Source: Bolinopsis microptera (Eukaryota > Ctenophora > Tentaculata > Lobata > Bolinopsidae). Taken from it: a stretch of DNA of 64,000 nt. This document shows, piece by piece, positions 6,901 through 64,000 of the stretch. A program made the position numbers and the translations under genes. Numbering within the stretch: the stretch's first letter is position 1; every line of letters starts with the position of its first letter. The notes under the pieces were generated by a model. That model made no database searches. It had not been told where the DNA came from and worked only from the letters and a program-made list of their open reading frames with translations. The stretch lies in NCBI RefSeq assembly GCF_026151205.1, contig NC_087078.1:6279675-6343674 (forward strand), in the 5' to 3' direction.

Positions 6901-8032
6901 TTAGATTTCAATCGCGTTAACCACCTATTATATATTCAACCAACAAGTACTCTATCACCATGTTTTTGATTCGTTGGAACTTACTGGGAAAACGAAGAAG
7001 GGACATAGAAAAAAAAGGTTGCAGTCTGGGGAAATAGTTAAGAAATACGACGGTTCACGGCAGGGTGTGACCCAGAAGCCTCTGGTATCATGGAATGACA
7101 TTGCCATCCTCATGTCCGTATGCACCAAATTCCCTTTTAAATACGACCTTGGCTTTAAATATAAAGCTGGTCTCCCCTTTACAGCGGGGCTTTAAAATTT
7201 TTCGTATGCTCCAAAAATTTAAAGGTCGCCTTTAAATCTAAATACGAGGTCATCTTTATCGATAAAGGGGACCTGAACTTTAGCTACTTTGCCGGTATGC
7301 TCCAAAATTTGAAGACGAGCTGCTCTTAAAAAACGGTCATCTCCATATTTGGAGTGAGAATTGACCAAATAAGGCAGACCCAGTTTTACTTCCTGTTCAC
7401 ACCTTCCGGGACATCCGTCACACTTCCTCTCACTCAGGTATGGTTTACTGCAGCTTTTCTTTGATTTTTCAGCCTGACTGTGTAGGCATGTTGACTCAGT
7501 AATTCCTCCGTGTTCCTTTATAACATCCCTCTAAATTGTAATTAATTTTATCAGCCGATAAATTCGTCGTCACCGCGGTCCCCGCCCAGAAAAGATTCCT
7601 TGCTTTAACTTCAGCACTACGTCTAGTGAGCGGGTGCATCATACTGTCGCACCAATCATAAGATAGTTTGATAAATGAACTTGCTCCTCTCAGGTTGTGC
7701 AATACTTAGATCAAATTTTCGGCTACATGCCTCTGTAGGCTCTATCGTTAACTTGTACAGTGGTTTATATTGTTAGCTTTGCACTGTATTCTCCACTGCT
7801 ACCTTTGTACTGTGGTCTCTATTGCTATATGATATATGTGGTCTCTATTTCCAGCTTATTACTGTATTACTGAAGTCTAACTTTTTACTCATGTCTCGAT
7901 CGCTTGCTTTTTACTGTCGTTTTAGACAGGGCAAGCTCTGTACGGTAGTTTAGTAAATGTATTGATCGTTATTTCTGCCACTTCATTCGAATTAATTAAA
8001 CCATTTTGTCAGTCGTGAATCGAGTCAGAGCA

Positions 8033-9091
8033 ATGGAAGACGCATTAGATGTGCTTGAGAACGTTGAACCAAATGAATATGTCAGAAGACCTATGAAAGA
8101 TCGAATGAACCCATTGAGTCAGTATGATGATACAGAGTTCTACATTCGTTTTCGCCTTAAGAAGGATGGATTCCAGTACATTTTCAGTTTAGTGGAGAAT
8201 CAACTTAAAGAGCGTAGAGGCCGTGGACGGTTCCCGTCAGTTCCACCAATCATGCAACTTGCTGTGACTCTGCGTTACTATGCTACTGGTGGATTTCAAT
8301 CGACAACAGGGGATCTCTTTGGACTTCACCAATCGACAGTTAGCCGACTGATAAAGATTACATCCGAAATCATAGCTTCACTTGCACAGGATACCATCAA
8401 GACTCCAAGCTCTGAAGAGTCTCTTAAAAGCAATATTTTCTTCCTGGAATATAGTAGTCTCTCTGGTGTCACCGGTATAGTCGATGGGACTCACATTTGG
8501 ATTCAATCTCCAGGGGGACAAACTGCTGAGCTTTACCGGAACAGAAAGGGATGGTTCAGTCTTAACGTTCAGGTGGTGTGCAATGAGAAGCACAAATTCC
8601 TAAATGTGGTGGCACGATGGCCTGGTTCAGTTCACGACTCCAGGATATGGAAGAATAGCAAGATCTGTAGAGATCTGGAGGAGGGCAGACTGCAAGGAGT
8701 CCTTTTAGGTGATTCTGCATACCCTCTGTCGAAACAACTGCTGGTTCCATTCGACTATCCATGTTCGACTGCTCAACATGGGCGGTTCAACCGCGCTTTG
8801 TGCAGATGTCGGGTCTTTATCGAGCAGACCATCGGAATATGGAAGCGACGCTTCCCAGTGCTGTCGTACAAAGTTAGAAAGAGTCCAGAGAATGCGGCAG
8901 TGGTAATTGTAGCTACGGCTGTGTTGCACAACTTGTGCACTGATTTGAATCAGCCTGTGCCAGGAGACGACCCTATTAATGAAGCTGAACTAAACCTAAA
9001 CAACTTGTATGACGATGAGCCATTCACTCCTGACGAAGATTTCGTTTTCACTGGCAAAGAAATTAGGGATGCTTTGGTCGAAAGATTCTAG
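8033..9091 (+). CDS. Harbinger transposase (DDE_Tnp_4 superfamily endonuclease)
   Basis: The 352-codon ORF is counted from the first ATG; the frame is open 9 codons further upstream from a TTG at 8006. An N-terminal helix-turn-helix-like region (FGLHQSTVSRLI) precedes the RNase H-like catalytic core. Counting from the TTG, the acidic triad is D160 in GIVDGTHIWIQ, D236 in GVLLGDSAYPL and E273 in RVFIEQTIGIWKRRF; D211 lies in PGSVHDSRIW. TAVLHNLCT near the end is the usual DDE_Tnp_4 closing motif. The length is normal for the family and there are no internal stops. It cuts and rejoins the element's ends in the nucleus. HARBI1 in vertebrates is a domesticated relative, but inverted repeats around this copy show it is part of a transposon. 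Confidence 0.93.
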   Translation: MEDALDVLENVEPNEYVRRPMKDRMNPLSQYDDTEFYIRFRLKKDGFQYIFSLVENQLKERRGRGRFPSVPPIMQLAVTLRYYATGGFQSTTGDLFGLHQSTVSRLIKITSEIIASLAQDTIKTPSSEESLKSNIFFLEYSSLSGVTGIVDGTHIWIQSPGGQTAELYRNRKGWFSLNVQVVCNEKHKFLNVVARWPGSVHDSRIWKNSKICRDLEEGRLQGVLLGDSAYPLSKQLLVPFDYPCSTAQHGRFNRALCRCRVFIEQTIGIWKRRFPVLSYKVRKSPENAAVVIVATAVLHNLCTDLNQPVPGDDPINEAELNLNNLYDDEPFTPDEDFVFTGKEIRDALVERF

Positions 9092-9557
9092 TGCAACTAT
9101 CGGCCACAACAGATTTGAACTCTACAAGCTATTACCTTATTTTTGCTTGTTGATTAATTTTTGCAAGTAGTATTATTGTAGAGTGCATGTGTTCTGGATG
9201 GCAACTACCTTTCACATTTCATAGAGGTATTGAATCATATTGCGGAGCCGTACTGTAAAATAGGAAATCATGACTTCATTTACATTTAGAAATTATGACA
9301 AATCATGCCACGACGTATTAAATTATTAAATATTCTTTCGTTCATGTTTGACTTTGTGGCTATTACCTATTTCTTTCTCAAATTTATTTCTTGTAAAATA
9401 TCTTGTAGTTATTCGTTATAACATAATTCTATCTCGATTTAACATATTGTGCATACCAACTAGTGGCTACTCATACTTCACTTGTGTTGTTATATCTTAA
9501 AATTTCTCCGTTTTTTCAAACAATTAACATATTTTGTCTTAGGGAGATCAAACTAAT

Positions 9558-10432
9558 ATGAAGAATGAAAAAGATCAGGTGGAACCCACAACGTGCAAGA
9601 AAGAACCAAGTGAATCTGATGGTAACTGTAAGAAAAAGGGGAAAAATTGGTCTAAGTCAGAAGAAGGGATATTAATGGACCTGATAGCGGACAAGCGGGA
9701 TATTATAGAATCAAAAGCCACTAATCGCACATTTAAAAACTTAAATCTGAAAAATCAAGCGTGGAAAGAGGTTTTTGCATTATACAACAATAACTTGGGT
9801 GTTAATCACCGCAGTATTGAGCAGCTCAAGAGCAAATGGGACAATCTGAAAACTTCTGCCAAGAAAAGGAGTGATGCACTGAAACGGCATCTAAATCAGA
9901 CTGGAGCAGCCCCCAATCCTAAACTGAATCTGAGCCCGAATGAAGAAAAGATACTGGGAATCATGATGGGGGCCTTAACGACAGCGATAACGCAATTGAG
10001 GAGAAGGAAACTAAAGTGGAGATGACTGGTTGTGTGAGCCCTGTTGCCACTGTGATTGATTTGGAAGAGGACTCCCGGCCAGAGGGTCAGCTGGAAGAGA
10101 CAGATGACATGGAGACGGCAACAAGGAAGCGTGACGTTGACGTGATGAAGACACCAGGTAACAGTGGGACTGCCGCCTCTAAAAGACCCAAGACTCAGGC
10201 ACAGACTGTAAACCAGCTAAGAATGGACTATATGGAGCTACAGAAGACGCTGCTGCTAGAACGGCACCAGAGATATATGCAGCTGATGGACACTTTGGAA
10301 ACCTGTGCTAGGGAAACCTCCAGGTTGCGTGAAGAGAGACCAGAGCACAGCCAGCTGCAGGATTTGGAGACAAACACTCAGCTGGCAGACCTCATCACCC
10401 AAAGTTTTGGGGTCATATCTGAGGACAACTGA
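9558..10432 (+). pseudogene. Harbinger Myb/SANT-like DNA-binding partner, one frameshift
   Basis: The first frame (9558-10025) holds a Myb/SANT-like domain (Myb_DNA-bind_5 type): NWSKSEEGILMDLI ... AWKEVFALYN ... QLKSKWDNLKTSAKK. The second frame (to 10432) has an acidic segment and then a C-terminal coiled coil (NQLRMDYMELQKTLLLERH). The frames overlap. Reading the second frame back gives GLNDSDNAIEEKETKVEMTG, which continues naturally from EEKILGIMMG of the first. A single missing G in the run at 9968-9972 explains the break; it could be a real mutation or an assembly error. In Harbinger elements the Myb-like protein helps the transposase enter the nucleus and bind the ends. Here it lies about 470 bp after the transposase, same strand. 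Confidence 0.85.
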
Positions 10433-49179: not shown

Positions 49180-49806
49180 TCACTCAACTAAAAACTGTGT
49201 TAGATTGTTCAACTCTGTTTTATCGTTGAGTGTTGGTTTATTTTCAACTAAAAATCGGGCTTCTTTAATCTTTCTGTTGATGAGTGATGTTCCTCTATCT
49301 ACGATTTGAAGTTTAAGTTTTGGGGGGCCTTTGTGCTGAGGGTGACTTTCCCTGTAGTGCTTTGCTAGTGGCTTATCTTCGTAAGATTTTGCTGTTGGAT
49401 TTGCCGCACTACGGTAATGCTCGTCGAACCTGCACTTGATCGGTCTGTATGTTTCCCCACCATAGTTCTCGGTACAATTGTCTACTTCGCAAGTGATGTG
49501 GTAGACGGTATTAGTTGTGGTGCATTCTCCATCGGTTAAAGCTGCGCATGTTCTGCAGTTTGATGTTGTACAGGATTTCTTGTCAAGGGGTCTGGAGTCT
49601 GTAAGGAGATCCTTCAGTTTCCGTCCAGGTTTCTCGACAATTTTGATGTGGAGTCCACTACGTCTGACAGCATCTCTGTATTTGCGACTAGTAGCTTCGT
49701 TAACATAGGGTAGTTTGAGAATCGCTCCGTCTTGGTCTTTGTTCTGTACTTTCTGATTAATTCTCTTTCTACGTTTTCTCTTGTTCTTTATGGTTTCTAA
49801 GACTCA
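49180..49806 (-). pseudogene. Penelope-like element, GIY-YIG endonuclease part
   Basis: Read on the minus strand, one in-frame TGA (49804-49806) separates this 208-codon stretch from the RT C-terminus. It contains KKSCTTSNCRTCAAL...C, the Cys-rich finger that precedes the nuclease in Penelope-like elements. The nuclease core follows: TVYHITCEVDNC then NYGGETYRPIKCRFDEH, i.e. Y...C...Y-x-G-x-T-x-R-x(5)-R-x(2)-E-H. This is the GIY-YIG arrangement with catalytic R and E in place, and the usual Y-[IV]-G is YGG here. It ends at a TGA at 49180. It nicks target DNA during retrotransposition. Stop-containing, so not functional as it stands. Confidence 0.85.
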
Positions 49807-50100
49807 ATCAGTGTAGCCGTTGTTGATGAGAAGTTTATCTATCATCTTTTCTGAGTACTTCTCGTTTTCTCTGTTGTTAGAGACTGCCTCTGCGGTGTTG
49901 TACATACTCTCAACAGTAGCATTCTTTGTACGTGTTGTATGATGAGAGTTGTAGTGGAGGGTGAGTGGCTTTTTCTGTGGTTTTCTGTAGAGTCTAGAAT
50001 GTACTATTCCATCTGAGTCGATCTTTATTTCCGTGTTGAGGAAGGGAACAAAGTCGTTCTGATTGTCAGGGTAGTCTACAGTTAGTTTGATAAGTTTGTC
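49807..50100 (-). pseudogene. Penelope-like element, RT thumb region
   Basis: Minus strand: KLTVDYPDNQNDFVPFLNTE then IKIDSDGIVHSRLYRKPQKK and LTLHYNSHHT. F-[TKL]...........[VL]-P-F-L-[DN]-x-x-I...G...[ST]-x-[VL]-Y-[RK]-K-P.......Y.S.H matches the segment after the YxDD box of Penelope-like RTs. It ends one stop before the nuclease. Upstream (50101-50498) the ORF is broken by inserted DNA. Confidence 0.85.
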
Positions 50101-50498
50101 AAAAAAATACAGAGAAAAAGCAAACATTTGATTTTTGTTTCGGCGACTGAATTGTTGATGGGCCGGCAAATATTTGTTGTCGAGTAGTGTTGAATACTCA
50201 TATTAACATGATTATTGATTTAATTTAGGAATTGTATATAACTATCTTTGACCAAGTTTAATTGTTAATGAGAATGCACCCCAGCACTGGGCGCGCGCGG
50301 CGGCTTTGATGTTAGCGGCTATAAGCTTGAAGCTAGGCAGCTGCAGAAAAGGCGCCGCGCGCGTTCACAGTTCAGCGTACGGCTTTTCGTTTTTGATTTT
50401 ACAAATGACAAAGCAACTTTTAATGATTATTAATGGATTTATCGGATATTTATAATTCAATATGTATTGATTCTTCTGTGGAAAATAAAAATTGTATT
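50101..50498. mobile_element. ~400-bp insertion in the Penelope-like element
   Basis: This block separates KYNFK of the RT from KLTVDYPD of the thumb, which are adjacent in the family. It contains GGGCGCGCGCGGCGGC and GGCGCCGCGCGCG in otherwise AT-rich DNA. At its right edge AAAATTGTATTTTACTT is present twice in tandem (50487-50520). The insertion type is unknown. Confidence 0.6.
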
Positions 50499-51374
50499 TT
50501 ACTTAAAATTGTATTTTACTTTGTCAGGATCTTGTTGTTCGATGAGGTTGCACAGTTGCTGAGCTTTTCGTCTGTTGGTGGTGGCTCCGTTTAGATCGTC
50601 GTAAAACCTGCTGTAGGTGGGCAGTGTTATCCTCAGGTCTACGTAGACTGAAAGTTTTTCCAGTTTCCACATTTTGACAGTAGCTAGTATAGGTGCAGGG
50701 TTGGTTCCCATGAACAATCCAAGAAGCTGTAGGTAGACTTGATTGTTGTAGACAAAATATGACTTTCCTAGGATTGTCTCTAGTAGTTCTTGTAAATCAG
50801 AGAGATGGAGACCGTATGTACTGATTGACTGTCTATTTTCTTTGGCAAATTCCATGACATCTTCTATTGCTGTTAGTACGTTGATATTGGTGTATAAAGC
50901 TTCGACGTCTGCTGTAAAGAAAGTAAGACTCTTCAGATCATTTGGTGTGATGTTTCTAATCCTTCGAAGAAAATCGTGAGTGTTTTTCAAATGAGAAGGT
51001 ACTAGATTCATCAGAGGAGATAGGATGTGACAGACGAACCAAAGGATTTTGTGGAAAGGGGAGTTGCAGCCTGAAACAATAGGTCTAGTTTTCATTGTGT
51101 CAGGGTTAAGAGTCTTGATCTCATCACTTGTGTACTTGTGGGTTTTAAGCATCACTCTTGCAGTAGCGAGGGTGGTGTGATGGCTCATTAACAGGTTAGT
51201 AACATCTTGAGGGAGATTACGACTCTTGGCAATGTTCTTGAATGTTGAGTTAACATCGTCTTCTAGAGTTTTAGTTAACTTGTTTATGTACTTTTGTTTG
51301 CCCAGTTTATCCTGTGGTATGTCGATCTTCTTGTAGACGTTTCCATTGTTGAGGTGAGTTGTAGTTGTCCTGTT
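50499..51374 (-). pseudogene. Penelope-like element, reverse-transcriptase domain (5'-truncated)
   Basis: The minus-strand frame is open from 51374 with no ATG until 51188, so the true start is missing; 5' truncation is usual for this class. RT blocks in order: RVMLKTHKY and TRPIVSGCNSPFHKI (fingers), TFFTADVEALYTNIN (motif A, catalytic Asp), LQLLGLFMGTNPAPILATV (motif B) and YSRFYDDLNGA (motif C, Y-D-D). The D-V-x-x-LYTNI form of motif A is diagnostic of Penelope-like elements, which are telomerase-related retroelements. It stops after KVKYNFK where foreign DNA begins. Confidence 0.9.
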
Positions 51375-52112: not shown

Positions 52113-52840
52113 AAAGAGGCATTATTTTTCGTCCCAGTAAACTAATTAGTCTAGAAACAGGCCAACTCGAGCACATACAATTGACTGCAGGGAGCTGTTT
52201 AGTCATGAAGCCCCCAAACACAGCTAGGCTTGTCTACACCTGAATCGTGTTACCCCTTGGTCAAGCCATTTGCCATTAGGTGTCAGTCACATATTACCAA
52301 ATCACTTTTTATTCTGGACCCTGTCTTGAAACCGGTTCTAACTTGGAAAGAAAAGACTCCTCAGATTCTTTTGTGTTGTTAACAAAATCTTGGGATGGAA
52401 TATCAGTAGTGAAGATCTCTTTGGCAGGATAGGGGCTAGTTTGGTTTATTATATCTGAACTGATCAAACTGAGGTTTAGTCTGGCAGGTTCAGTTCAATG
52501 CCACCCATATACAAAGGCTGCAAATTGTGGGTGAGGAATGTCACACCTAAATATGCAGAACATTAAATAGTCCCCATCATGCAGAAGAGAGTGCTTTATG
52601 GTAACCACCTTGTTGCAAATTCTGTTTTTCAAGTCGAGCTTATGAAATTCACACCCAGCTTAATTTATCAACATTACTTTATTTCAGCCTGAAGATTCTT
52701 GATCGTCCAACTTGTACAAATTTATCACAGCTCGACAGCTGTCCAAAGTTAATAGGAATTGAATTGTTTCATATGTACATTTCTAAATTTTCTTGTGTCC
52801 TGTAATCTAATCAGATTTTTGCAGAGTTTAGTGTAACAAA

Positions 52841-52893
52841 ATGACCAGCGAACAAAGATTCCAAGGGTACAGTCTCGGCAGGAACAGCTCCAA
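52841..52893 (+). CDS. Jupiter/HN1 (JPT) family gene, first coding exon
   Basis: TTTTTGCAG|AGTTTAGTGTAACAAA precedes the ATG, so the exon probably starts at 52825 with 16 nt of 5' UTR after a UTR intron. It encodes MTSEQRFQGYSLGRNSS and ends AA|GTAAGT (phase 2), a strong donor. Human HN1/JPT1 starts with a similar short stretch ending in RNSSR followed directly by V-L-R-P-P-G-G. Here the next exons all begin with A + codons for (V/I)(I/V/M)APPGG, giving NSSK-V-[IM]-APPGG across the junction. The match in phase, residues and spacing makes this the start of the gene whose other exons lie at 61850-63776. JPT proteins are small, disordered, microtubule-associated or signalling adaptors. Its intron of 8956 nt is the longest seen here. 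Confidence 0.8.
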
Positions 52894-52974
52894 GTAAGTA
52901 AAAATGACTCTCTGGGCTTTTCCCTCTTTACTCAAGTTAATCTACACCTTATTTTAGGATTGACAGGATTTTCT

Positions 52975-53245
52975 GCCTTTCCCGGGATTTGTCAGGGTTT
53001 GTCGGGGTTTGTCGGGGTTTGTCAGGGTTTGACGGGGTTTCCGGTTTGTCGAGCCTGGAGGCTTTTCTTTTTTTTTTTTTTTTTTTGAGTCTCAGAACAA
53101 AAAGCCGAGACGGAGTCATCAAGCTTTACGTGGAAAAACACTATACAAGAAGGCCTCATGTAGCCGGCGGGCCCGAGGCAAAACCCCTCGACAAACCCCG
53201 TTTGTCGGGATATGTCGGGGTTTGTCGGGGTTTGTCGAGCCTGGA
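52975..53245 (+). repeat. GGGGTTTGTC short repeats around a poly-T tract
   Basis: Five to six units of GGGGTTTGTC/AGGGTTTGTC at 52985-53045 and again at 53195-53240. Each block ends with GTTTGTCGAGCCTGGAG (53043 and 53232). Between them are a T22 tract and a unique segment. Lies in the first JPT intron. Confidence 0.8.
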
Positions 53246-53908
53246 GACTACATGATGCCTTATTGGGAGTAGTGTCAATTCAGAGAAATTGATCAAAATG
53301 GGTTTCCCAGTAAACCCGTGCATTTTCATTAATACAACCTGTAGGTTAGAATTCACAAGCTGAAGTTATTCAGGAAAAATGCAATTCAATACAAATAACA
53401 TAATTACACATTAAAACACACAAATTAGCTTATCGCAATCAATTAAAATATGGATACGCTTTATATGGACAGGCTACAATATGAATTGACCATCTACCTA
53501 CATGTGGACTAAATTTAAAAAATTAAACTTTTCGAGTTTAACTGGTCACTATGAATTGGCATTTAATGCAACGATAGAACAGAAAAACCCAGAAAAACTT
53601 GAAGTATCAAAAAATGTTCACGTCATTAGCAATCACATTGCCGATTTAAGGAAGGTATTCATTAAACATGTTGTTGTACACAAAGAAGTGTAGTGTATTA
53701 TACGTGTAACCACTGCACCATGATCACCATTCAAATCTAATCATATCATGGTACCGTCTGGTATTGAGTAATATCAGCCATCTGATACTGTTTCCAACTC
53801 CAGACACTATTAATCAGTTCATAACTCCAGTCAGCTCAGTATTCAAGCTCAGTACACTATTCATAAATATATGCATATTAATAAGTGTAGCAAAAATACT
53901 ATACATTT

Positions 53909-54128
53909 ATCACATGCCTTCTCATGCGATATCAAAACTTTCGCCCACGAGGCTTGCCGAGTTAGCGAAAGTTTCGATATTTCCCGAGGCTTGCCGAGGG
54001 TTATATCGACATTTTCAATCACGAGGCTTGCCGAGTTTTGAAAATGTTGATATCGCATGAGAAGGCATGTGATTAATGTTTTATCACACTTTCTTTGGAG
54101 CCAAATTTGGCCGGGAAAGCAGAATTTG
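53909..54128. mobile_element. Foldback MITE with conserved side module, copy 1
   Basis: ATCACATGCCTTCTCATGCG ATATC pairs with GATATCGCATGAGAAGGCAT GTGAT around two inner hairpins. CGAGGCTTGCCGAG is present three times inside. A side module (TATCACACTTTCTTTGGAGC CAAATTTGGCCGGGAAAGCAGAATT) follows; its inverse is at 56229-56266. Confidence 0.75.
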
Positions 54129-56167
54129 ATCAAACGTTAGAACTTATAAATCTCACCAAAGCAAACTAGACATGTCGAACTTATTTATGTTTATAATTTC
54201 CAAGCTATATATAGCTCTCGATGAGTTAGTATTTCAGATATCGAAGATACAATACGTAAAATTAGGATCTCACGTTCCCACATTTATGACACAGTGAATG
54301 CTGTATGCCGCGCCCAATTTGCTTTCTATTGGTACGTAGTGCATCGAATATCAATATATTCACGCCTATGGGTCTTGTACTTATTGCATTCTAGAATATT
54401 CCACCACCAGCGCGTATTTTAATCATAAATTATTTCCTGCATATCAATCGATGTGAGGTGATTCTTATACTTTATTTCTATTAGATATATTTTGAGTCAT
54501 TAAAACTGAAGATGTATAATGTATAGAACATCTGTTTTAGTGTTGATTACATCCTAGTCCTTATCATGTAATACTAATCTGCGATAAGGCGATAGTATTT
54601 CCTGGTTGTTATATTTGAATTGGGCTGTGGCGCCATGATTGTCTATTCATAAGTCCAAATTTTCAACTGTTCATGTTGTACTCGTACTACACGCCCTAAT
54701 TCATATATCAATGTAATATTATCGTCCGTCTTGATTGTCTGTTATTTCAGAATGATTTATCACTGGAACTTGTAATCATTGACTTTTATTGAATTTTATC
54801 GAGTATTATAATAGTCTGCTTATATTCATCTTGCCATTATTTGCTTCACTAGAAATTATCAGAACAGCCGTAATATAATGTATCTCTTCAATACAACCCT
54901 AGATTGTTTTAATATCAACAGCAGACATCCGTACTCTTTATTATTGTTTATGAAAGTAACTCTTGACTTAATAGCCCGATAATCGGCCTGGTAATACCAT
55001 TTTAGAACGCACTTCACCAGCCTATTATAACCACCCTGGTCATTGCCAGGCAGTTCACCCGTACTGTTAGCAATATTGAATTGGTCTAAAGAATGGCAGC
55101 ATATCAATCATCGGACCTAAATTTGCCCCAGCGACCAGACCAATTTATAACCGGATTAGCTGATTAAGTTACGCCATTCGTCCCTTGATATCTTTATATA
55201 CATAATATATTTTATAGAATGTTTTTTGTTGCACTAACTAAACTTCAGTTAAAACTGGTGCAGGGATAGAATTTTCGCTCTTTATTGTACAGAATTTATA
55301 AGTCTCTTTATATATCAGCCACGTATTTCGTAAGCCATTCTAGGGGAAGCCGGTTTGGAAAAGCCTAGTATAATTTCTGCACAATTTCTATATGGAATAT
55401 GGCTCACAGAAGGGATCAGAGGGGGTTAAAAGTGAGGTCTGAAATGGCTGAAATGTGGCTAAATTAATATGCGAATGATCCCATATCGTAATGTATCACA
55501 ATTTATTACGTTATGATTTGCTGACCATCCCTTTATGAATTCTTGACAATAATTTTCTTTCAAATATAACTACTTGACGCCAAGATTCTTGTTTTGTGTG
55601 TTTTCTTCGTTCGAATTAATCAAACATCGTTTAGTGTTTACTATTTTTTGTGAGGGCGACTGTAGTTTGTTCTGACATTTCCTTTTTAATTTCAAGTAAG
55701 TGATTAGGGAAATTAATTAGCCTGATTGATTGTATCGCTGACAAGTACCAAAACTTTGTGCAACTTTCAAGTCTGCTCGTAAACTTTGATCTCGTTTTCA
55801 GTAATCTTAAGTCACTTAAAGCTCGTACAAGCCAGGGAGTTTTTACTTTGTTTCATCATTCGAAGCTTAATTAGGCTTTGAACTATGAAGTGCAGTAAAA
55901 AAGCAACAGCTTGGAAAAGTTTTACAACAAAAAATTGTATTTTGCTTAACACATGTCAAACGCAAGGAAATGTTTTTAAAACCATCCATAAATATACATT
56001 TTTCCTAATTGTGGAAAGTTTATCTGATCATTGCATTTACGGTCATAGACTACTTCAGGTTGTTGATTTAAATCTTTATTTAAATCAGTACCTCACAGTA
56101 GTAGAACAGTTGTTGAGAGGGGGTTCCTTGTTCCTATGGGAATATCGGACTCTCTCTGAGCAACTGA
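54129..56167. other. JPT intron 1, no further gene seen
   Basis: AT-rich intronic DNA. A faint SINE-tail match is at 55785-55840. The 157-codon ORF at 55885 crosses a palindromic repeat and is not credible. Confidence 0.45.
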
Positions 56168-56270
56168 TTGATATTTCATGCCCCCCGGGTGAGAGCCAGT
56201 GCTCCCCATCGGGGCATGTAATATCAATTCTGCTTTCCTGCCAAATTTGGCTCGAAAGTGTGATAATAGT
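56168..56270. mobile_element. Foldback MITE with conserved side module, copy 2
   Basis: TTGATATTTCATGCCCC pairs with GGGGCATGTAATATCAA; it is followed by TTCTGCTTTCCTGCCAAATT TGGCTCGAAAGTGTGATAAT, the inverse of the module at 54085-54125. Confidence 0.7.
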
Positions 56271-56481
56271 CAGTATGCATACTTTTAAAAGTTCTTATCA
56301 TCCAGCAAATCTGATCATTCTAAATATTTCTGTTTCCTCTCACTTGATTTTACAGTGACCCTCATTCCCTATACACCTATTTTAACACACTACTTTAAAC
56401 ACTACTCTTACTAAATATAACACATGATCTCCACAATTAATTAACAGTTCTAATAAAACCACTTTTATAACAACATTAACT

Positions 56482-56482
<1 letters not shown>

Positions 56483-56516
<34 letters not shown>
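56483..56516 (+). repeat. (AG)n microsatellite
   Basis: An uninterrupted GA run of about 34 bp in the JPT intron. Confidence 0.97.
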
Positions 56517-56519
<3 letters not shown>

Positions 56520-58408
56520 CAGTGGCATTTGTTGTAATGGGTGTTTCCTTTTAGAGGTCCTAGCTCTCACAGATATTAGATCTGTTAGAACAATGTAGTT
56601 GTGTACACAGACAGGTGGTATTGTGAGTGCATTATCTGTTGTCTGGGATACAGACAGTTGTTGTTGTTTGTGAAGCAGACAGCTGTGTGATTCAACACAG
56701 TTTAACGATTAATGAACTTTTACTTTTTAAATTTCAGTTCACAAGTTTTGAAGAATTGGTGGAATTATTTGCTTCACATTCCTATTAGTTTTCAGGAATG
56801 AAATTGCTCTTTGTTTAATAGACATCTAGAAAAATGTATGGACTAAACACACATTCTGCCACTCACTCTGCTAAACATCTCACACAACAAACGATAAATC
56901 TTTTTGATTGATTTAAATAAGAAGGCTATGGTAATTCTCCACAGAACGTGGCGTCACTCCTTCAAACACGTGTAACATCAGTAGAATGACATCAGTGTTT
57001 ATACTGAATACTAATTAACAGTATCTTCAACAGACTCTCCTTGTCTCCTCTGTCCAATCTTCAGTACTTCAGTTCAAACGAACTGTCTCTGAAAGGGTTT
57101 ACAATTTAATATAATCTATAAGCCTGCCTGGGCTGACTGTTTCATCACAAACATCTCAAATATTTGACTGAAACCTCAACAATCCTTTGTGATGTGTGTA
57201 ACGGCTGGAATATAGATAGTGCCAGTATGATGGAAGTTCAAATAAGTATTTCCAGTTGAGAGCTTTGAGGAATTACGTGTTCTCGATATTATTCCTTAAC
57301 TCGCTGGCAGATTTCATAACAGAAATCTGAAAGATTGAATTTCATAATCATGCTGATGTAACGATAAAATATGTAATTTTGGGCAATTATAGATATTACT
57401 GTAGGAGAATCATCGCTCAGAGAATCATTCTAGAAGGAAAATCATGTCACTTAAAATGTAAACCGCGAACTGTTACAACTTTATAATAACAATGATACCA
57501 CAGCCATGAAAAATTTTGCTCAAAAAAGGTGCATTTTAAAAGTGTACAATTTATATAATTTCCCTAATTTGTGGTGAATTCCTCCGGGGATAAGTACACT
57601 GTACAGGTGGGTCCAGTTACTTTTCATCAAGATAAAATGTAGTCGACATACAGAGATTTATTTTCGGTTTTCCAGGGTTCACTCTTTCAGGATTAAATAC
57701 TCTAGAAGAACAATGATTAGACTGTGAATAAGTAAACTTTCTTCCTAACGCGTGTGAGGGCCATTTAACGAAATAGCCACGCATTCTGTAACGTCAATGT
57801 GTATAGTCCCAATGTATATAATTATTAATTATATACTCCCCCGAGCTGCAGCCGTGAACCTGTGTGTTTACAAGCAGAACATCACCACGGTTCATGCGAC
57901 TACAATTATTACTTTACCATGCTTAATGAGATGAGGCTAATTATTGCATCTTTAAGTCAGACAACTACAACTACTACCTACAACCTGCCATAATATACTT
58001 CAGGTCTGTTGCAGATCATACTATATCTTTCCATGACGTATGCTGTATGCAAGATTCATAGTGTATCAAGATTATATATACCATGGCAGCTTGAGATAAT
58101 TACCATTATTATAATCTAACGTTCAGGATATATAATATATTATAAAAGTACTGTTGGTTTGTACACAAGATAATGAAGGTTGTGTTGAATGAACAGTTAG
58201 ATTTATTAAAACATTCTCATTTAAAAAATAATAACTTAATAATACCCAGATCTTGTCGATCTAAACACAGTTAAACGGCACGGATGTGCTCGCCTCACTT
58301 AGCCATCCTCCAACAAAGCCTAATAGCCAGTCCCAACTTTAATTTTACTCAGTAAGTTTGCTTGAACCGGGCATATTCCCAGTTCCTCCCCGCATATCCT
58401 GACATAAT
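56517..58408. other. JPT intron 1, no gene or repeat recognised
   Basis: Intronic DNA with scattered direct and inverted words but no element ends or coding signal I can support. Confidence 0.4.
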
Positions 58409-58513
58409 ACACGTGGTAACCACGTGACAATACAGTGGTAACCACGTGACAATACAGTGGTAACCACGTGACAATACAGTAGTAACCACGTGATACCCAC
58501 GTGACAATGCAGT
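58409..58513. repeat. 22-bp minisatellite carrying six CACGTG E-boxes
   Basis: GTGGTAACCACGTGACAATACA repeats about four and a half times, with a preceding ACACGTGG and a trailing CCCACGTGAC. CACGTG occurs six times in about 100 bp; CCACGTGAC is the core of E-box sites bound by bHLH factors such as USF, MYC/MAX and TFEB-type proteins. Two more GTCACGTG sites lie at 58912-58934. Regulatory use is inference. It sits in the long first intron of the JPT gene. Confidence 0.85.
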
Positions 58514-60404
58514 GAATACAGCATGGCTCTCCAAGACTGGAGATCTGAAGTAAGTGACTGACTCTGATCTCAGTAACACTACCTGATCCCAGGTACCGTA
58601 GCAGTGTAGTATTGTACAGCTCCAGAGTCCAGCGGTATAACGCTCAGCAGCCCTTAAACAACGTATATACGTATTGTACACAGTCATGGGTAGTGCTAAG
58701 CGTTTAAATTAAAGGTATAGTAACTTGGATTTCCTTAAATAGCATCTACCCTTTACATACCTTATATACTTCTTATCTTTAGTAGCTGTTGTTAGATAAT
58801 ACGCTTCAATTCATTAGGTAATACCGCCCAATCTCCTGCTCCACTGTTGTTTGTTGAGTTCATGGATCATGCCCGTATATAATGCCATACCCATATTTGG
58901 GCATGTCAATAGTCACGTGTGAGTCACGTGTCAGGGGGCTAATGCGTACAACTCATTATTAGATCGCTGGATTTGAGCCAGGGTGCTCCCGGGGCCCTCC
59001 CGAGTTATTATAACATAGTAACCGTGGAAACCGTATTTCAAACTGTAATGTAACCCTGTCCTACATCGGGTCACGAGTGTTCCGCTACTCGTTCTACTAT
59101 TGATATAGGAGAAGCAGCAGTTCTATGTGAAGATAATGTATTGTATAAGTTAGTGAGTGTAATGAATTATTACCAGATGTAATGATACCAGCCGCACTGC
59201 GCGTGTAATATGACAGTATTTAATGATACACATGGCATATAACCGATATTAATTAAATGTATCTGCCAATAGCACCCATGTGTCAGGTAACCTATGTGCC
59301 AGGTAACTAAATACAAATTAATCGTGTCCCCCAATGAGCATGTGCCCTGATAAATCTCGTTGGTAAGGAGAATCTGTGATAGTGACTGATCTTGTGAACT
59401 TATCTGTTTGATCCGTGTTATGAACGTCCCACCATTTCACATTTGCCCTAAAGTTCCACGACAATATGATTATAAATATGTAGTTGTGGAAATTTGCTGT
59501 TGGTCCACAATTGTTTTGTCAGAACTGACTACACAATAATTGTACCGCTTATACAGATTATAGAGATATAGTACAGAACTTGCAATATCTCTTTTTTGGT
59601 TCCAACACCCTCCGTCAAAAAGGTCTTTTTTTGTTGACATTATCCAATACTTTCTCGAATTCCTGGAATACTCAGTGAGCTAGACTCCCATTCATCAATA
59701 CGTCCCTGTAGCTGTTATCAATTCAACTAATTCAACTTTCTGTCAAAGTCACACACTCAATTCACTGTCACTTCCCTGTAGATTAATTCTCTCCGTATGG
59801 GCTGTGTGCCATTATTCCTTATATAAGAATAGCGCTGACTGGTACCGCTTGTGTAATATCTATTGCACTTTCTCTTTTTCTGGCCTTGAAGAAAGTCTTT
59901 GAGCTGCTCGTTCATTGCTTGTTGCTAAAACTAGGTTTAATGCTTGTACAATTTCAATCCCACTGGAGTGTTCTGTGCTGGTACTTTAAATTGGCCCAGG
60001 ATATCACCTAAATTACACCTTCTTCCTGTTTTTATGTACACTTCTCGCTCTGTCCCTCCGTTCTAACATCAGGGGCCCCGGGCCATGACTAATTCAAAAT
60101 AACAATACTATTGTAGTGATAATACTCAATTTGTATTGTGATTTCACAGCCTGCTTTACAAGGCACACTACAGAGATATCCTGTTATCTATTTGTCTAGT
60201 TTACCCCACTTTAAACATCAGCTCTGAATTATAGCCAACTCTATGAATTAGTTCACACTTTGCTGTCAATACCTCCTCGAGCTGCTGATTTGTAATTCCT
60301 GTCACCAACTCTAATAACGTGTCCAGATGTAAAACATTGGCCGCTGAGCACGAGTTTAGTACATTACATACATACATGTTACATGGCGAGATCTCCATCC
60401 AAAA
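58514..60404. other. JPT intron 1, mostly unannotated
   Basis: Contains the two extra CACGTG sites near 58920. No transposon ends or genes recognised. Confidence 0.4.
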
Positions 60405-60689
60405 GGATTAGTCTGCGTCATCTATTATACAACTTCGGCGGGTAATATTTCTCCATCCTTTTCGATCTGCAGCCAATCTTCTCATACAATCAATCGTGAG
60501 TCCATTACGATCCAATCTCTGCTCAGCATCTTCAATAAATACATCATTTAAGCTCTTCCTAGGCCTGCCTCTTGATCGTTTCCCATGCTTGGGTTTCCAT
60601 TCAAGTAGTAGTACATTATTTCGAGTAATTTTCATCACAAAAGCCAATTCGAGCCTGAACACTAAACGTTTGCCTTGGTTTATAACCAT
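60405..60689 (-). pseudogene. LINE ORF2 C-terminal fragment
   Basis: The 93-codon minus-strand frame reads ITRNNVLLLEWKPKHGKRSR then GRPRKSLNDVFIEDAEQRLD and LAADRKGWRNITRR. W-x-P-x-x-G-x-R-x-R-GRP-[RK]-x-[SWT]-x.D......D.......[AM]..DR..W is the C-terminal signature of Jockey/RTE/R2-like LINEs. It is antisense to the JPT gene, within its intron, and truncated at the 5' side. Confidence 0.75.
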
Positions 60690-61849
60690 ATTCTCTTTGT
60701 TTGGTTTCTCTTTCGTGTACTGAGAGAGACTTGCAGCCAGTCATGATGAAAATAACTTCAGATAAAGCTCGTTGTCAGACTCAAACCATGATCTCTTTTA
60801 AATTTACAGCAGTTTTACGAGCTCCCATCTTTTAAAACCTGGCTTTTACCGGCTCCAGTGTGTCTCAGACAACGTTACGTCTAATGAGATGATACTGTAT
60901 TTGAGTGTGACAAGAGGTGTTGAAATTTAAAATGTAGTAGTTGTCCCGCTCCGAATTATTATAAACACTTGTCGTTATTATCTACATTACAGCTTTAAGT
61001 TGTCCTGGACACGAGATTTTGTTCACACCGTCAATTGATTATATTATCTAACTTTACATGTATTGATTTAACTGAGTGTGCTGGAGAGAATACATGACGT
61101 ATGTTTCACATGCAATAATATAAAAATCATCACTGACTTTTCTCAAAACTTCTAGGAAAGAAACACAGCGCCGAGATGAGGTTTGTTGTGCTACGACAGC
61201 TGAACTTGACAATGTTATGTTAAATATTATGTAAACGGTATAAAATATTACACAGTCTGTGCTCTCCAGCTCTCCACGCTATGTAATAATGTGGGAGTAG
61301 GATCAGGAGGTTAATATTATCGTGTAATATGATTAAATGATTTAATGTCAGGCCATACAAGTATAGTGTGTATTGAGTGTAATCGTGCATAGCAACACGA
61401 ACATGTGAATGTGTAGGCCAACCACCAAATTTTTATAGACTCGAGATCGAAGCAATGAATGATGCCTAATATTATGGTAATCTAATCTAAAAAGCAGTCA
61501 ACCCTTCAAAATGAACTTTTAACAAAATCCATAAATGGGTTTGTGGAACCCCGGCTAACTTTCCAGAGACTTCTTTTGTTCTCCCTGTCTTTCGATATCG
61601 AACGTTACTTTTTGTCACAGTCTTAATACTATTGTAATATTACAGTTGAATTTGCCGCCAGAATCAGGAAATTTGCATGGCATAATCACAATTTTTCAGC
61701 ACCTTGTCGACCGCAATAAGCGTGTGCAGTCATTCTGTGACCGCCTAACGGTAAAGTTATAGAGACAATCGCGCGAAAAATCAATCAGAGCGCGCGCAAA
61801 TCAGCGCGCGTAAGATTTTGGAGGGAAATAACGATCCCGTCCGTTGCAG
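60690..61849. other. JPT intron 1, 3' part
   Basis: No repeat boundaries recognised. GCGCGCG-rich words at 61770-61810 precede the acceptor of exon a; a weaker version (GCGCAGAATGTCGAGCAAAGCGTGCGC) precedes exon d, supporting shared ancestry of the two introns. Confidence 0.5.
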
Positions 61850-61990
61850 AGTGATAGCACCGCCAGGTGGCAAAACGAGTATCAATCTATTCGGTGGGTA
61901 CGGAGAAGACCCAGTCGAAGCTCCAAAACCAAAAGTAGCTGCTCCAGCTCCTGTTGCAGTCTCTGCTCCATCTCACGAACCCTTCCAACG
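61850..61990 (+). CDS. JPT family gene, PPGG cassette exon a
   Basis: Acceptor CCGTTGCAG|A, donor CAACG|GTAGAG. 141 nt, phase 2 at both ends, so it can be included or skipped without shifting frame. It encodes VIAPPGGKTSINLFGGYGED, then a Pro/Ala/Lys-rich linker and HEPFQ plus half an Arg codon. If the intron is not removed, CGG TAG follows, i.e. the same Arg and an immediate stop. PPGG(K/G)-[ST]-x-[IF]-x-[LI] is the hallmark box of JPT proteins. It is most similar to exon d at 63243 (both have NLFGGYGEDPV/SLFGGYGEDPV). The intron before it shares GGRAAATAACGATC with that before exon d, so the two exons arose by duplication including flanking intron. Confidence 0.8.
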
Positions 61991-62245
61991 GTAGAGAGCA
62001 TGTATGATGTACATATTGTCATCCATGTTGTCACCCCAGTGTAGCACAAAATTTAAAATGCGACATTCACGCTGGGTAATATCTCTGTCTCTTGTCTGGA
62101 CTCTTCTATTACTATTCCCTCTAATTCTATTCGTTACTTCGCCTTCTATTCCCTACACTGTTATCCCGGCAGTCGGCACCCTCTTGGTGTTCAACCAAAG
62201 TACACTTCGTATTTAAGAGGGTAATAACGAACCAGTCCTTACCAG

Positions 62246-62401
62246 AATTGTGGCACCGCCTGGTGGTCAAACGAGTATCAATCTGTACGGAAGGGGACAA
62301 CCCGCCGCCCCACAACCAACAACCGCTGCCACAAAACCGACAGCCACTGCTCCACCACCGGCTAAAGCAGCCCCTGAACCAGCTGCTACTCCATTCTATC
62401 G
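62246..62401 (+). CDS. JPT family gene, PPGG cassette exon b
   Basis: Acceptor CTTACCAG|A, donor CTATCG|GTAGAA. 156 nt, phase 2-2. It encodes IVAPPGGQTSINLYGRGQP, a Pro/Thr/Ala linker and ATPFY plus a split Arg. The donor overlaps an in-frame TAG, and AATAAA (62405-62410) starts one base after it, so the same exon end can act as a splice donor or as the last codon before a short 3' UTR. A GT-rich stretch follows within 60 nt. Near-identical to exon c (62738-62893), as are the flanking introns (GGTAATAACGAACCAGT, TTTTTGTTGGACAGGTTATA), so this is a recent tandem duplication of about 490 bp. Confidence 0.8.
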
Positions 62402-62737
62402 GTAGAAATAAAGCATTCTGTTACTTCAAGTGTAGTATTTTCGGACCATAAATATTTAATAGTTTTGTTTGTTCTTATCGCTAAAATGTGATGTTAGGTG
62501 CGATAATGTACTTTTTGTTGGACAGGTTATATTGTCAAGCTGTAAGTTAATTACTGCTTAACTGTTTTACCCAATACCCATGGATGGTAGTGAAATTTTC
62601 GGAATGTTGTCAGGGTGCAGTTATGGAAGGGGATGAGTTTATACGTGAAGAAAATATGTTTCAGGCCATTATCCCCAAAAAATCAATCAAAGTGCATTCC
62701 ATATTTTGGAAGGTAATAACGAACCAGTTCTTACCAG

Positions 62738-62893
62738 AATTATGGCACCGCCTGGTGGTCAAACAAGTATCAATCTGTACGGAGGGGGACCACCCGCCGC
62801 CCCACAACCAACAACCGCTGCCACAAAACCGACAGCCACTGCGCCACCACCGGCAAAAGTAGTCCCTGAACCTGCTGCTACTCCATTCTATCG
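62738..62893 (+). CDS. JPT family gene, PPGG cassette exon c
   Basis: Acceptor CTTACCAG|A, donor CTATCG|GTAGAA. 156 nt, phase 2-2. It encodes IMAPPGGQTSINLYGGGPP, the same Pro/Thr/Ala linker as exon b and ATPFY plus a split Arg. It differs from b by a handful of substitutions, several of them silent (GCT/GCG, ACG/ACA), which is consistent with maintained coding function after duplication. It lacks the AATAAA present after exon b (here GTAGAAAGCATCATG). If included with neighbours it adds one more PPGG module in frame, Arg being restored as CG|A at each junction. Confidence 0.8.
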
Positions 62894-63242
62894 GTAGAAA
62901 GCATCATGTCACCTAAAGTGTAGCATTTTCGGAGCAAACATATTTTGTTCTTATCACTAAAATGTGATGTTACTTTTTGTTGGACAGGTTATATTTTCAA
63001 GTTTTTAGTTAATTAACTACTTTACCCATGAGTTAAGAGTGTAGAAAATGTGGTGTTTTGTTCTCCAAAGATGACCATTCCAGATGATTTTGAATATCCC
63101 AAATTTTTGCTACACTCTTAGGGAAACAACTCTCAGCCACCAGTAGAATTGCATAGAGAATCGCGCAGAATGTCGAGCAAAGCGTGCGCCTAATCAAACT
63201 GTGTCATATTTAGAAAGAAAGTAACGATCTCTTCCCTTTCAG

Positions 63243-63477
63243 AGTGATGGCACCTCCTGGTGGCAAGACTAGTATCAGCCTGTTTGGTGGGTACGGAGAA
63301 GACCCAGTCGCCCCAAAACCTAAAGCAGCTGCTCCTGCAGCAGCAGCCGCCCCAGCCCCTGCTGCTGCCTCCGCTTCAGCTCCAGCAGCAGCCCCTGCTC
63401 CAGCTGCAGCTGCTCCAGCCGCAGCTGCTGCCTCTGCAGGCGAACCGTTTGTGCCTGCTGGTCAGCGAGTAGCAAAG
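63243..63477 (+). CDS. JPT family gene, main PPGG exon d
   Basis: Acceptor CCCTTTCAG|A, donor GCAAAG|GTTTTT. 235 nt, phase 2 in and phase 0 out. It encodes VMAPPGGKTSISLFGGYGED, then a long Ala/Pro run (about 35 residues of A, P and S) and EPFVPAGQRVAK, and continues in frame into the terminal exon. Where exons a-c end with PF[QY]R, exon d has EPFVPAGQR, so it is the ancestor-like form that reaches the C-terminal half. Expected minimal transcript: exon 1 + d + e. The Ala/Pro linker could be length-variable between alleles. Confidence 0.85.
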
Positions 63478-63623
63478 GTTTTTATTCTCAATCAGTTATT
63501 AATGCATCTTATTTATTCTTTTTGGAACCAGTAATTGCAGACTTTAGATTCAAACACTTTAGATAAAAACACATTTTACCTCAATTTATGAATTTAATAT
63601 TTTGCTAATTCTAATTTCCTCAG

Positions 63624-63776
63624 CCGGACAGATTCGAGAAGGAACACCAGGTGTCGAACTGCCAGAAAGCCAGGAACGAATCGAGTGTGTTCGGAGCCCC
63701 AGATCCCGGTGCAAGAAAACAAGTGGTCAAAATAGTCAGACCCCCTGGTGGCCAATCTTCCATCTCTTTCGGATAA
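63624..63776 (+). CDS. JPT family gene, terminal exon e
   Basis: Acceptor TTTCCTCAG|CCG, stop TAA at 63774-63776. 50 codons: PDRFEKEHQVSNCQKARNES then SVFGAPDPGA and a C-terminal VRPPGGQSSISFG. The SSVFG-x-P box matches the S-N-I-F-G-x-P motif in the middle of HN1/JPT proteins, and R-P-P-G-G-x-S-S-[IL]-x-[FL]-G ending right at the C-terminus matches the C-terminal PPGGKSS-[LI]-x-LG of vertebrate JPT1/2. These two boxes, in this order, are what identify the family. No AATAAA was seen in the remaining 224 nt. Confidence 0.88.
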   Translation, partial: PDRFEKEHQVSNCQKARNESSVFGAPDPGARKQVVKIVRPPGGQSSISFG

Positions 63777-64000
63777 ACTGAGAGATTTTTTGTGGCTGTC
63801 ACATATTTGGGGTTGTCTGGCCAGGCCCTATGTGAGAGGATTATAATGTGACTGCATGTTGGACAATGTCATAATCTATGTATTTATTGCGCTGACCGCT
63901 TAATTGGATTTAGAACCTTCTTGAAGGTTCTAAAACCTCATTTCCCAGTTATTTCCCCTTTTTGACTACCTGTTTGCATGATATTGATCAGAATGATTCC

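Follow-up and report, generated by a model that had tools for sequence, protein, structure and literature searches.

Can a single gene of a comb jelly yield proteins that differ in how many copies of one short motif they carry? This question is raised by a 64,000-nucleotide (nt) stretch of the genome of the lobate comb jelly Bolinopsis microptera (assembly GCF_026151205.1, contig NC_087078.1, positions 6,279,675 to 6,343,674 of the forward strand), referred to here as the window. A JPT/HN1-like gene at positions 52841-63776 of the window contains four homologous exons in a row, each encoding a Pro-Pro-Gly-Gly (PPGG) box. Human JPT1 has one N-terminal PPGG box. We find that the exon array is real and probably functional.

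A script reading of the window reproduced the exons, phases and residues of the whole array to the base, matching the coordinates, lengths and box residues given in a preliminary description of this locus. All exons lie on the plus strand. Exon 1 (52841-52893, 53 nt) encodes MTSEQRFQGYSLGRNSS plus 2 nt and ends in phase 2 at the donor CAA|GTAAGT. After a first intron of 9 kilobases (kb) come exon a (61850-61990, 141 nt, VIAPPGGKTSINLFGGYGED..EPFQR), exon b (62246-62401, 156 nt, IVAPPGGQTSINLYG..TPFYR) and exon c (62738-62893, 156 nt, IMAPPGGQTSINLYG..TPFYR), which share phase 2 at both ends. Exon d (63243-63477, 235 nt) has the same 5' phase but ends in phase 0 at the donor AAG|GTTTTT; it encodes VMAPPGGKTSISLFGGYGED and an Ala/Pro-rich stretch. 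The last exon, e (63624-63776), reads ..RNESSVFG..KIVRPPGGQSSISFG and closes with TAA at 63774-63776. The boxes themselves are VIAPPGGKTSI in a, IVAPPGGQTSI in b, IMAPPGGQTSI in c and VMAPPGGKTSI in d. The plus strand of the window holds the PPGG codon pattern just five times, in these four exons and in the C-terminal box, and at that stringency no further copy was found in the first intron.

These phases determine what each exon could contribute. Any subset of a, b and c keeps the frame, as had been proposed. Of the eight exon combinations, seven (a, b, c, ab, bc, abc and d by itself) have been translated, and each remains open as far as the TAA at 63774-63776; ac keeps the frame by arithmetic and was used in alignment scoring only. 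The phase 0 end that exon e needs is found in d only, so d is obligatory and a, b and c are optional. Thus, the preliminary description was right that four homologous PPGG exons stand in a row, but they are not four alternative second exons, because only d joins e in frame. An in-frame alternative donor for d at 63468 (CGA|GTAGCA) was considered and set aside with a score of -3.67, compared with -0.12 for the donor chosen (scoring is described below).

The shortest predicted product, which uses exon d only, has 146 residues. When it was compared by BLASTP with human JPT1, the first 37 residues aligned with 17 of 38 columns identical (expect value 3e-6, for a single comparison), and this aligned N-terminal leader includes RNSS(K/R)V..PPGG. 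The C-terminal box PPGGQSSISFG (KIVRPPGGQSSISFG, then stop) lies outside the BLASTP match and by eye resembles PPGGKSSLVLG (NPPGGKSSLVLG) of human JPT1; RNESSVFG in exon e may correspond, also by eye, to the central SNIFG box. The Pfam model JUPITER (PF17054), which gives human JPT1 33.6 bits against a cut-off of 27, matched neither the two of the eight isoforms nor the five shorter pieces that were searched. A JUPITER profile search of the genome also returned nothing; its controls returned nothing either, which makes it uninformative. NCBIfam gave 20 weak matches, all far under their cut-offs and mostly along the Ala/Pro stretch. The preliminary description is thus supported in that the gene is JPT/HN1-like; because the JUPITER model is unmatched, we call it JPT-like. 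With vertebrate JPT1/HN1 and JPT2/HN1L and with Drosophila Jupiter it would share the short N-terminal leader ending in RNSS(K/R)V..PPGG and the C-terminal PPGG(K/Q)SS..G, a likeness drawn from human JPT1 only. It differs from them in falling under the detection limit of the Pfam JUPITER model, in its long Ala/Pro stretch and in its three extra PPGG exon copies.

The four-copy array did not arise by chance resemblance: it is one duplicated unit. The proposed tandem duplication of the PPGG exon is borne out, and the unit comprises the exon together with about 50 nt of the preceding intron. Compared with a without gaps over 119 nt, d is 79% identical, b is 62% and c is 63%, and b and c are 92% identical over 218 nt. 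When the last 60 nt before each exon are aligned, TAACGA and the acceptor AG are common to all four copies, and the TAACGA, about 20 nt before the AG, is branch-point-like. Copies b and c differ from a and d by 0.36-0.43 in nonsynonymous divergence (dN) and by 0.65-1.20 in synonymous divergence (dS), with dS values of 0.65 for a against b and 0.72 for a against c. We infer that there are two copy types, an a-type and a b/c-type, and that b and c split later, with c being the younger duplicate of b or the reverse.

The close likeness of b and c might suggest that two alleles were placed in tandem during assembly. However, the sequence behind the two exons (62402-62620) differs at 43 of 178 aligned columns and has 5 gaps, whereas the exon itself (156 nt) and the 55 nt in front of it each have 9 mismatches and no gap. 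Moreover, an artefact of this kind would leave a untouched, given its dS from both b and c. We therefore regard misassembly as highly improbable.

The substitution pattern also bears on whether the extra copies are decaying remnants, rarely or never used, whose frames have stayed open through recent origin or gene conversion. In favor of decay, exons a-c have weak donors (see below), and the b-c comparison over the exon gives 4 synonymous and 5 nonsynonymous changes, a ratio in which constraint is not evident by itself. However, a comparison of a with d along their first 21 codons gives 7 synonymous and 2 nonsynonymous changes (dS 0.68, dN 0.04), and module a looks constrained relative to d. 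Our own arithmetic puts the probability of this pattern at about 0.001 with both exons neutral and at about 0.02 with constraint on d alone. Frames and splice elements are also intact in all three copies. For these reasons, decay seems to us a rather unlikely account of the array.

As a reference for splice sites in this genome, six of its myosin loci were aligned with three myosin sequences, with GT-AG introns accepted and no donor model used. Of 60 distinct introns proposed, 33 that were identical with at least two references were kept and 27 single-reference introns were dropped. A site matrix was built from the 33 introns, the reference sites were scored with each left out of its own matrix, and 548 chance GTs served for comparison. 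The reference donors comprise 11 GTAA, 7 GTGA, 1 GTAG and 14 others (e.g., GTTTAC, GTACAG and GTATCA), and GTAGAG is the donor of one of the dropped introns; loose donors are therefore normal in this genome. The exon 1 donor scores 4.72 and equals or exceeds 29 of the 33 reference donors. The d donor equals or exceeds 6 of the 33, and 12.4% of the chance GTs score as high. The acceptors of a, b, c, d and e equal or exceed 14, 9, 9, 23 and 9 of the 33 reference acceptors, respectively, and are ordinary.

We favor the view that a-c are in-frame cassettes spliced between exon 1 and d, and we hold it with some reserve, since a number of observations weigh against it. In its favor stand the exact phases and open joins, the 3' splice region common to all four copies, the acceptor scores, the a-d substitution pattern, the lack of any indel between the b and c exons beside the 5 gaps behind them, the Arg codon formed at the new junctions, the lack of A(A/T)TAAA behind a and c, the normality of loose donors in this genome and the multi-box ORF on C1 (the last items are described below). 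On the other side, the donors of a, b and c score only -1.04, -1.90 and -1.90, which equals or exceeds just 3, 1 and 1 of the 33 references, and they are matched by 21.4%, 29.6% and 29.6% of the chance GTs. Each of these donors reads CG|GTAG, that is, CGG TAG in the exon frame, an immediate stop. Elsewhere in the genome, a second JPT-like locus (described below) has no extra PPGG pattern in the 8.7 kb upstream of it. An intronless open reading frame (ORF) with three boxes on C1, also described below, does not have its first box matched to the exon 1 context in global alignment and cannot be tied to any cassette isoform. Finally, A(A/T)TAAA is present in only 50 of 174, 64 of 173 and 67 of 172 first-intron windows of matching sizes, which limits what can be concluded from the lack of such a signal behind an exon.

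The stop at each donor makes possible an explanation that was absent from the preliminary description, namely that a, b and c serve as alternative 3' terminal exons. Splicing would then take exon 1 to one of the three, and translation would end at CGG TAG. The products, which we consider unlikely to be what the array makes, would be short; they would have a single PPGG box and a tail rich in Pro and Ala that ends in PFQR or PFYR, and they would lack the C-terminal box. This explanation accounts for the in-frame TAG at the precise position of each supposed donor and for the weakness of those donors. In addition, an AATAAA is present at 62407 just behind b, and tandem terminal exons have been described for the fly gene pip (PMC9013439). 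However, any phase-2 GTAA, GTAG or GTGA donor reads as a stop, that of exon 1 included, and the TAG is expected anyway at such a site; because of this, it is neutral with respect to splicing. The AATAAA behind b starts 2 nt past the stop, which is too close for a usual 3' end, and no A(A/T)TAAA was found in the 255 nt that separate a from the next exon or in the 349 nt that follow c. This lack is a weak argument because most first-intron windows of that size also lack a signal. A further point concerns the last codon. Splicing of a, b or c onward yields the junction codon CG|A, which is Arg for all three, and only 3 of the 16 possible dinucleotides would yield Lys or Arg there. A Lys or Arg also precedes the box in the exon 1-d join (Lys) and in the N-terminal boxes of the C1 ORF (Lys and Arg). 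The Arg is thus predicted by splicing and by nothing in a terminal exon. On balance, we consider alternative terminal exons possible though unlikely.

The 5' part of the PPGG exon was duplicated in tandem, and the copies retain the acceptor, the branch-point-like element and a GTAG donor in phase 2. If a-c are indeed cassettes, each copy could be spliced between exon 1 and d with the frame unchanged, and each inclusion would add one (K/R)(V/I)xAPPGGxTSI box with an Ala/Pro-rich spacer. The resulting proteins would carry one to four N-terminal boxes ahead of a single C-terminal box. The weak donors suggest that inclusion may be regulated and partial, perhaps one copy at a time, and use of a single copy per transcript is no less plausible than free combination. 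The number or type of boxes might in turn tune the binding of this low-complexity protein to a partner.

The introns contain a pattern that could provide for inclusion of one copy at a time. The motif AGTGTAG(C/T)A occurs behind a, b and c, in the candidate selector strands at 62038-62046 (AGTGTAGCA), 62429-62437 (AGTGTAGTA) and 62917-62925 (AGTGTAGCA), respectively. The window has a single copy of the complementary sequence, T(A/G)CTACACT, which lies at 63108 within a candidate docking strand upstream of d (63104-63120, TTTTTGCTACACTCTTA). A fourth AGTGTAG strand (63034-63048) could form a local hairpin with this docking strand. All of these elements are on the plus strand. Competition of the three selector strands for the one docking strand would make the choice mutually exclusive, with one copy per messenger RNA. 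This would be a special case of the in-frame cassettes, so that its probability is part of theirs, and we offer it tentatively as a rather improbable one. The pattern was noticed after the fact and is suggestive.

Statistical comparisons of the pairing give results on both sides. The introns behind a and c share a 9-nt word whose complement is present in one of the three introns, and 5 of 2,000 shuffles give such a word of 9 nt or more. In the 64 kb, CTACACT occurs twice, both times in these introns, and 4 of the 10 occurrences of AGTGTAG fall within 62038-63044. Six of the 11 places in the 64 kb that pair best with the docking strand fall in 62016-63816. However, just two of these six are the words behind a and c (62016 and 62901); one is the hairpin strand (63021) and three are unrelated (62566, 63231 and 63776). 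AGTGTAG(C/T)A is also present twice in the first intron (53884 and 58603), which speaks against the pairing. The best similarity between the a and c introns, taken alone, is reached by 33 of 500 shuffles, that between a and b by 109 of 500, and the whole duplex of the a intron with the c-d intron is matched by 23 of 400. Pairing of the strand behind b with the docking strand is unremarkable, with 979 of 12,774 windows pairing equally well or better.

The arrangement recalls the mutually exclusive exon clusters of flies (Dscam, Mhc, 14-3-3zeta and MRP) in its tandem homologous exons of the same phase, its duplicated intron flanks and its candidate downstream docking strand. Clusters of the 14-3-3zeta type have their docking site downstream, as proposed here. 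Unlike the fly clusters, the comb-jelly copies are also frame-compatible in series.

Other PPGG genes in the same genome provide a point of comparison. A second JPT-like gene, with two boxes, is present on the minus strand at C7:2127289-2128100 and encodes ISAPPGGHTQLNLFGG..QCQYERNKSSI in one exon and KIMQPPGGRTSLSLFG at its end. Its first PPGG exon would agree with exon d in the codon position and phase of its start; its exon 1 was not found. A close copy of this gene is located about 72 kb away (C7:2055427-2056237), with a stop inside the match to the last exon.

The C1 ORF (C1:9674836-9675171) runs for 112 residues without interruption, with a pair of boxes at its N terminus and a single box at its C terminus. 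Two related copies, at C1:9615637-9615946 and C1:9688630-9688954, have broken frames, giving three related intronless PPGG ORFs, of which one is open, over 73 kb (C1:9615637-9688954). The open ORF resembles a predicted cassette product in its two N-terminal boxes, in LFGGYG(Q/E)D after the second box and in its C-terminal PPGGASSISLG, and differs in being intronless and in having other spacers. From this ORF, the genome could encode a JPT-like protein with several boxes even if no splicing is assumed. The alignments do not decide whether it descends from a spliced cassette isoform.

Several additional features of the window and its surroundings were recorded. An acceptor-like site, TTTTTGCAG (52805-52840), lies 16 nt before the exon 1 ATG and equals or exceeds 22 of the 33 reference acceptors; it is a candidate for the acceptor of an intron in the 5' untranslated region or of a spliced leader. 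Trans-splicing occurs in comb jellies. A translation start at the ATG GCA of c and d, which would give a trans-spliced MAPPGG, was ruled out, as a and b have no ATG. The first intron carries two clusters of 10-base-pair repeats of the GTTTGTCGGG type (52967-53257), and a 22-base-pair tandem repeat, GTGGTAACCACGTGACAATACA, is located at 58413-58526. The GC content of the window is 37.2%. A receptor encoded in the same genome, searched with a query that contained 13 erroneous residues, matches among solved structures first the ML032222a receptor chains (expect value about 1e-62) and next 4zdm (4e-51), both of them comb-jelly proteins, with other structures following from 1.6e-27; a search for cytochrome oxidase gave no match. 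At 8000-10022, a DDE_Tnp_4 transposase ORF is followed by a Myb/SANT ORF, which we take to be a Harbinger-type arrangement. ORFs on the minus strand at 49183-51374, one of them weakly reverse-transcriptase-like (RVT_1, expect value 9e-4, under the cut-off), are perhaps a Penelope-like element. Just past the right end of the window (L005:632-1639 on C7) is a single-exon ORF for a CWC25 splicing factor (Pfam PF12542, 48.5 bits) with an AG acceptor-like stretch directly before its ATG.

Among the matches listed in searches of the main texts of an open-access library, we found no report of PPGG exon copies, and those for JPT in ctenophores were off topic by title. The array is a variant that combines two known things, a JPT/HN1-like gene and a tandem-exon cluster. 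To our knowledge, the binding partner of the JPT/HN1 PPGG box is not settled. Jupiter, the fly relative, binds microtubules (PMC3375142), and the binding site for NAADP (nicotinic acid adenine dinucleotide phosphate) on JPT2 was unmapped as of a 2021 review (PMC8452981). Isoforms that differ only in the number or type of their N-terminal boxes, if they are made, would be a ready series for testing what PPGG binds, and the gene would offer a compact, testable example of how tandem-exon splicing is controlled in an animal remote from insects and vertebrates. The comb-jelly lineage has been argued to be sister to all other animals, and the published annotation of the Bolinopsis genome used RNA-seq and Iso-Seq (PMC10232365).

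The fullest interpretation, which we consider a long shot, is that the comb jelly picks among tandem PPGG exons, or strings them together, by competing intron pairings and thereby tunes the number or type of boxes. If true, this would be a splice-controlled valency dial for the PPGG motif of a JPT-like protein.

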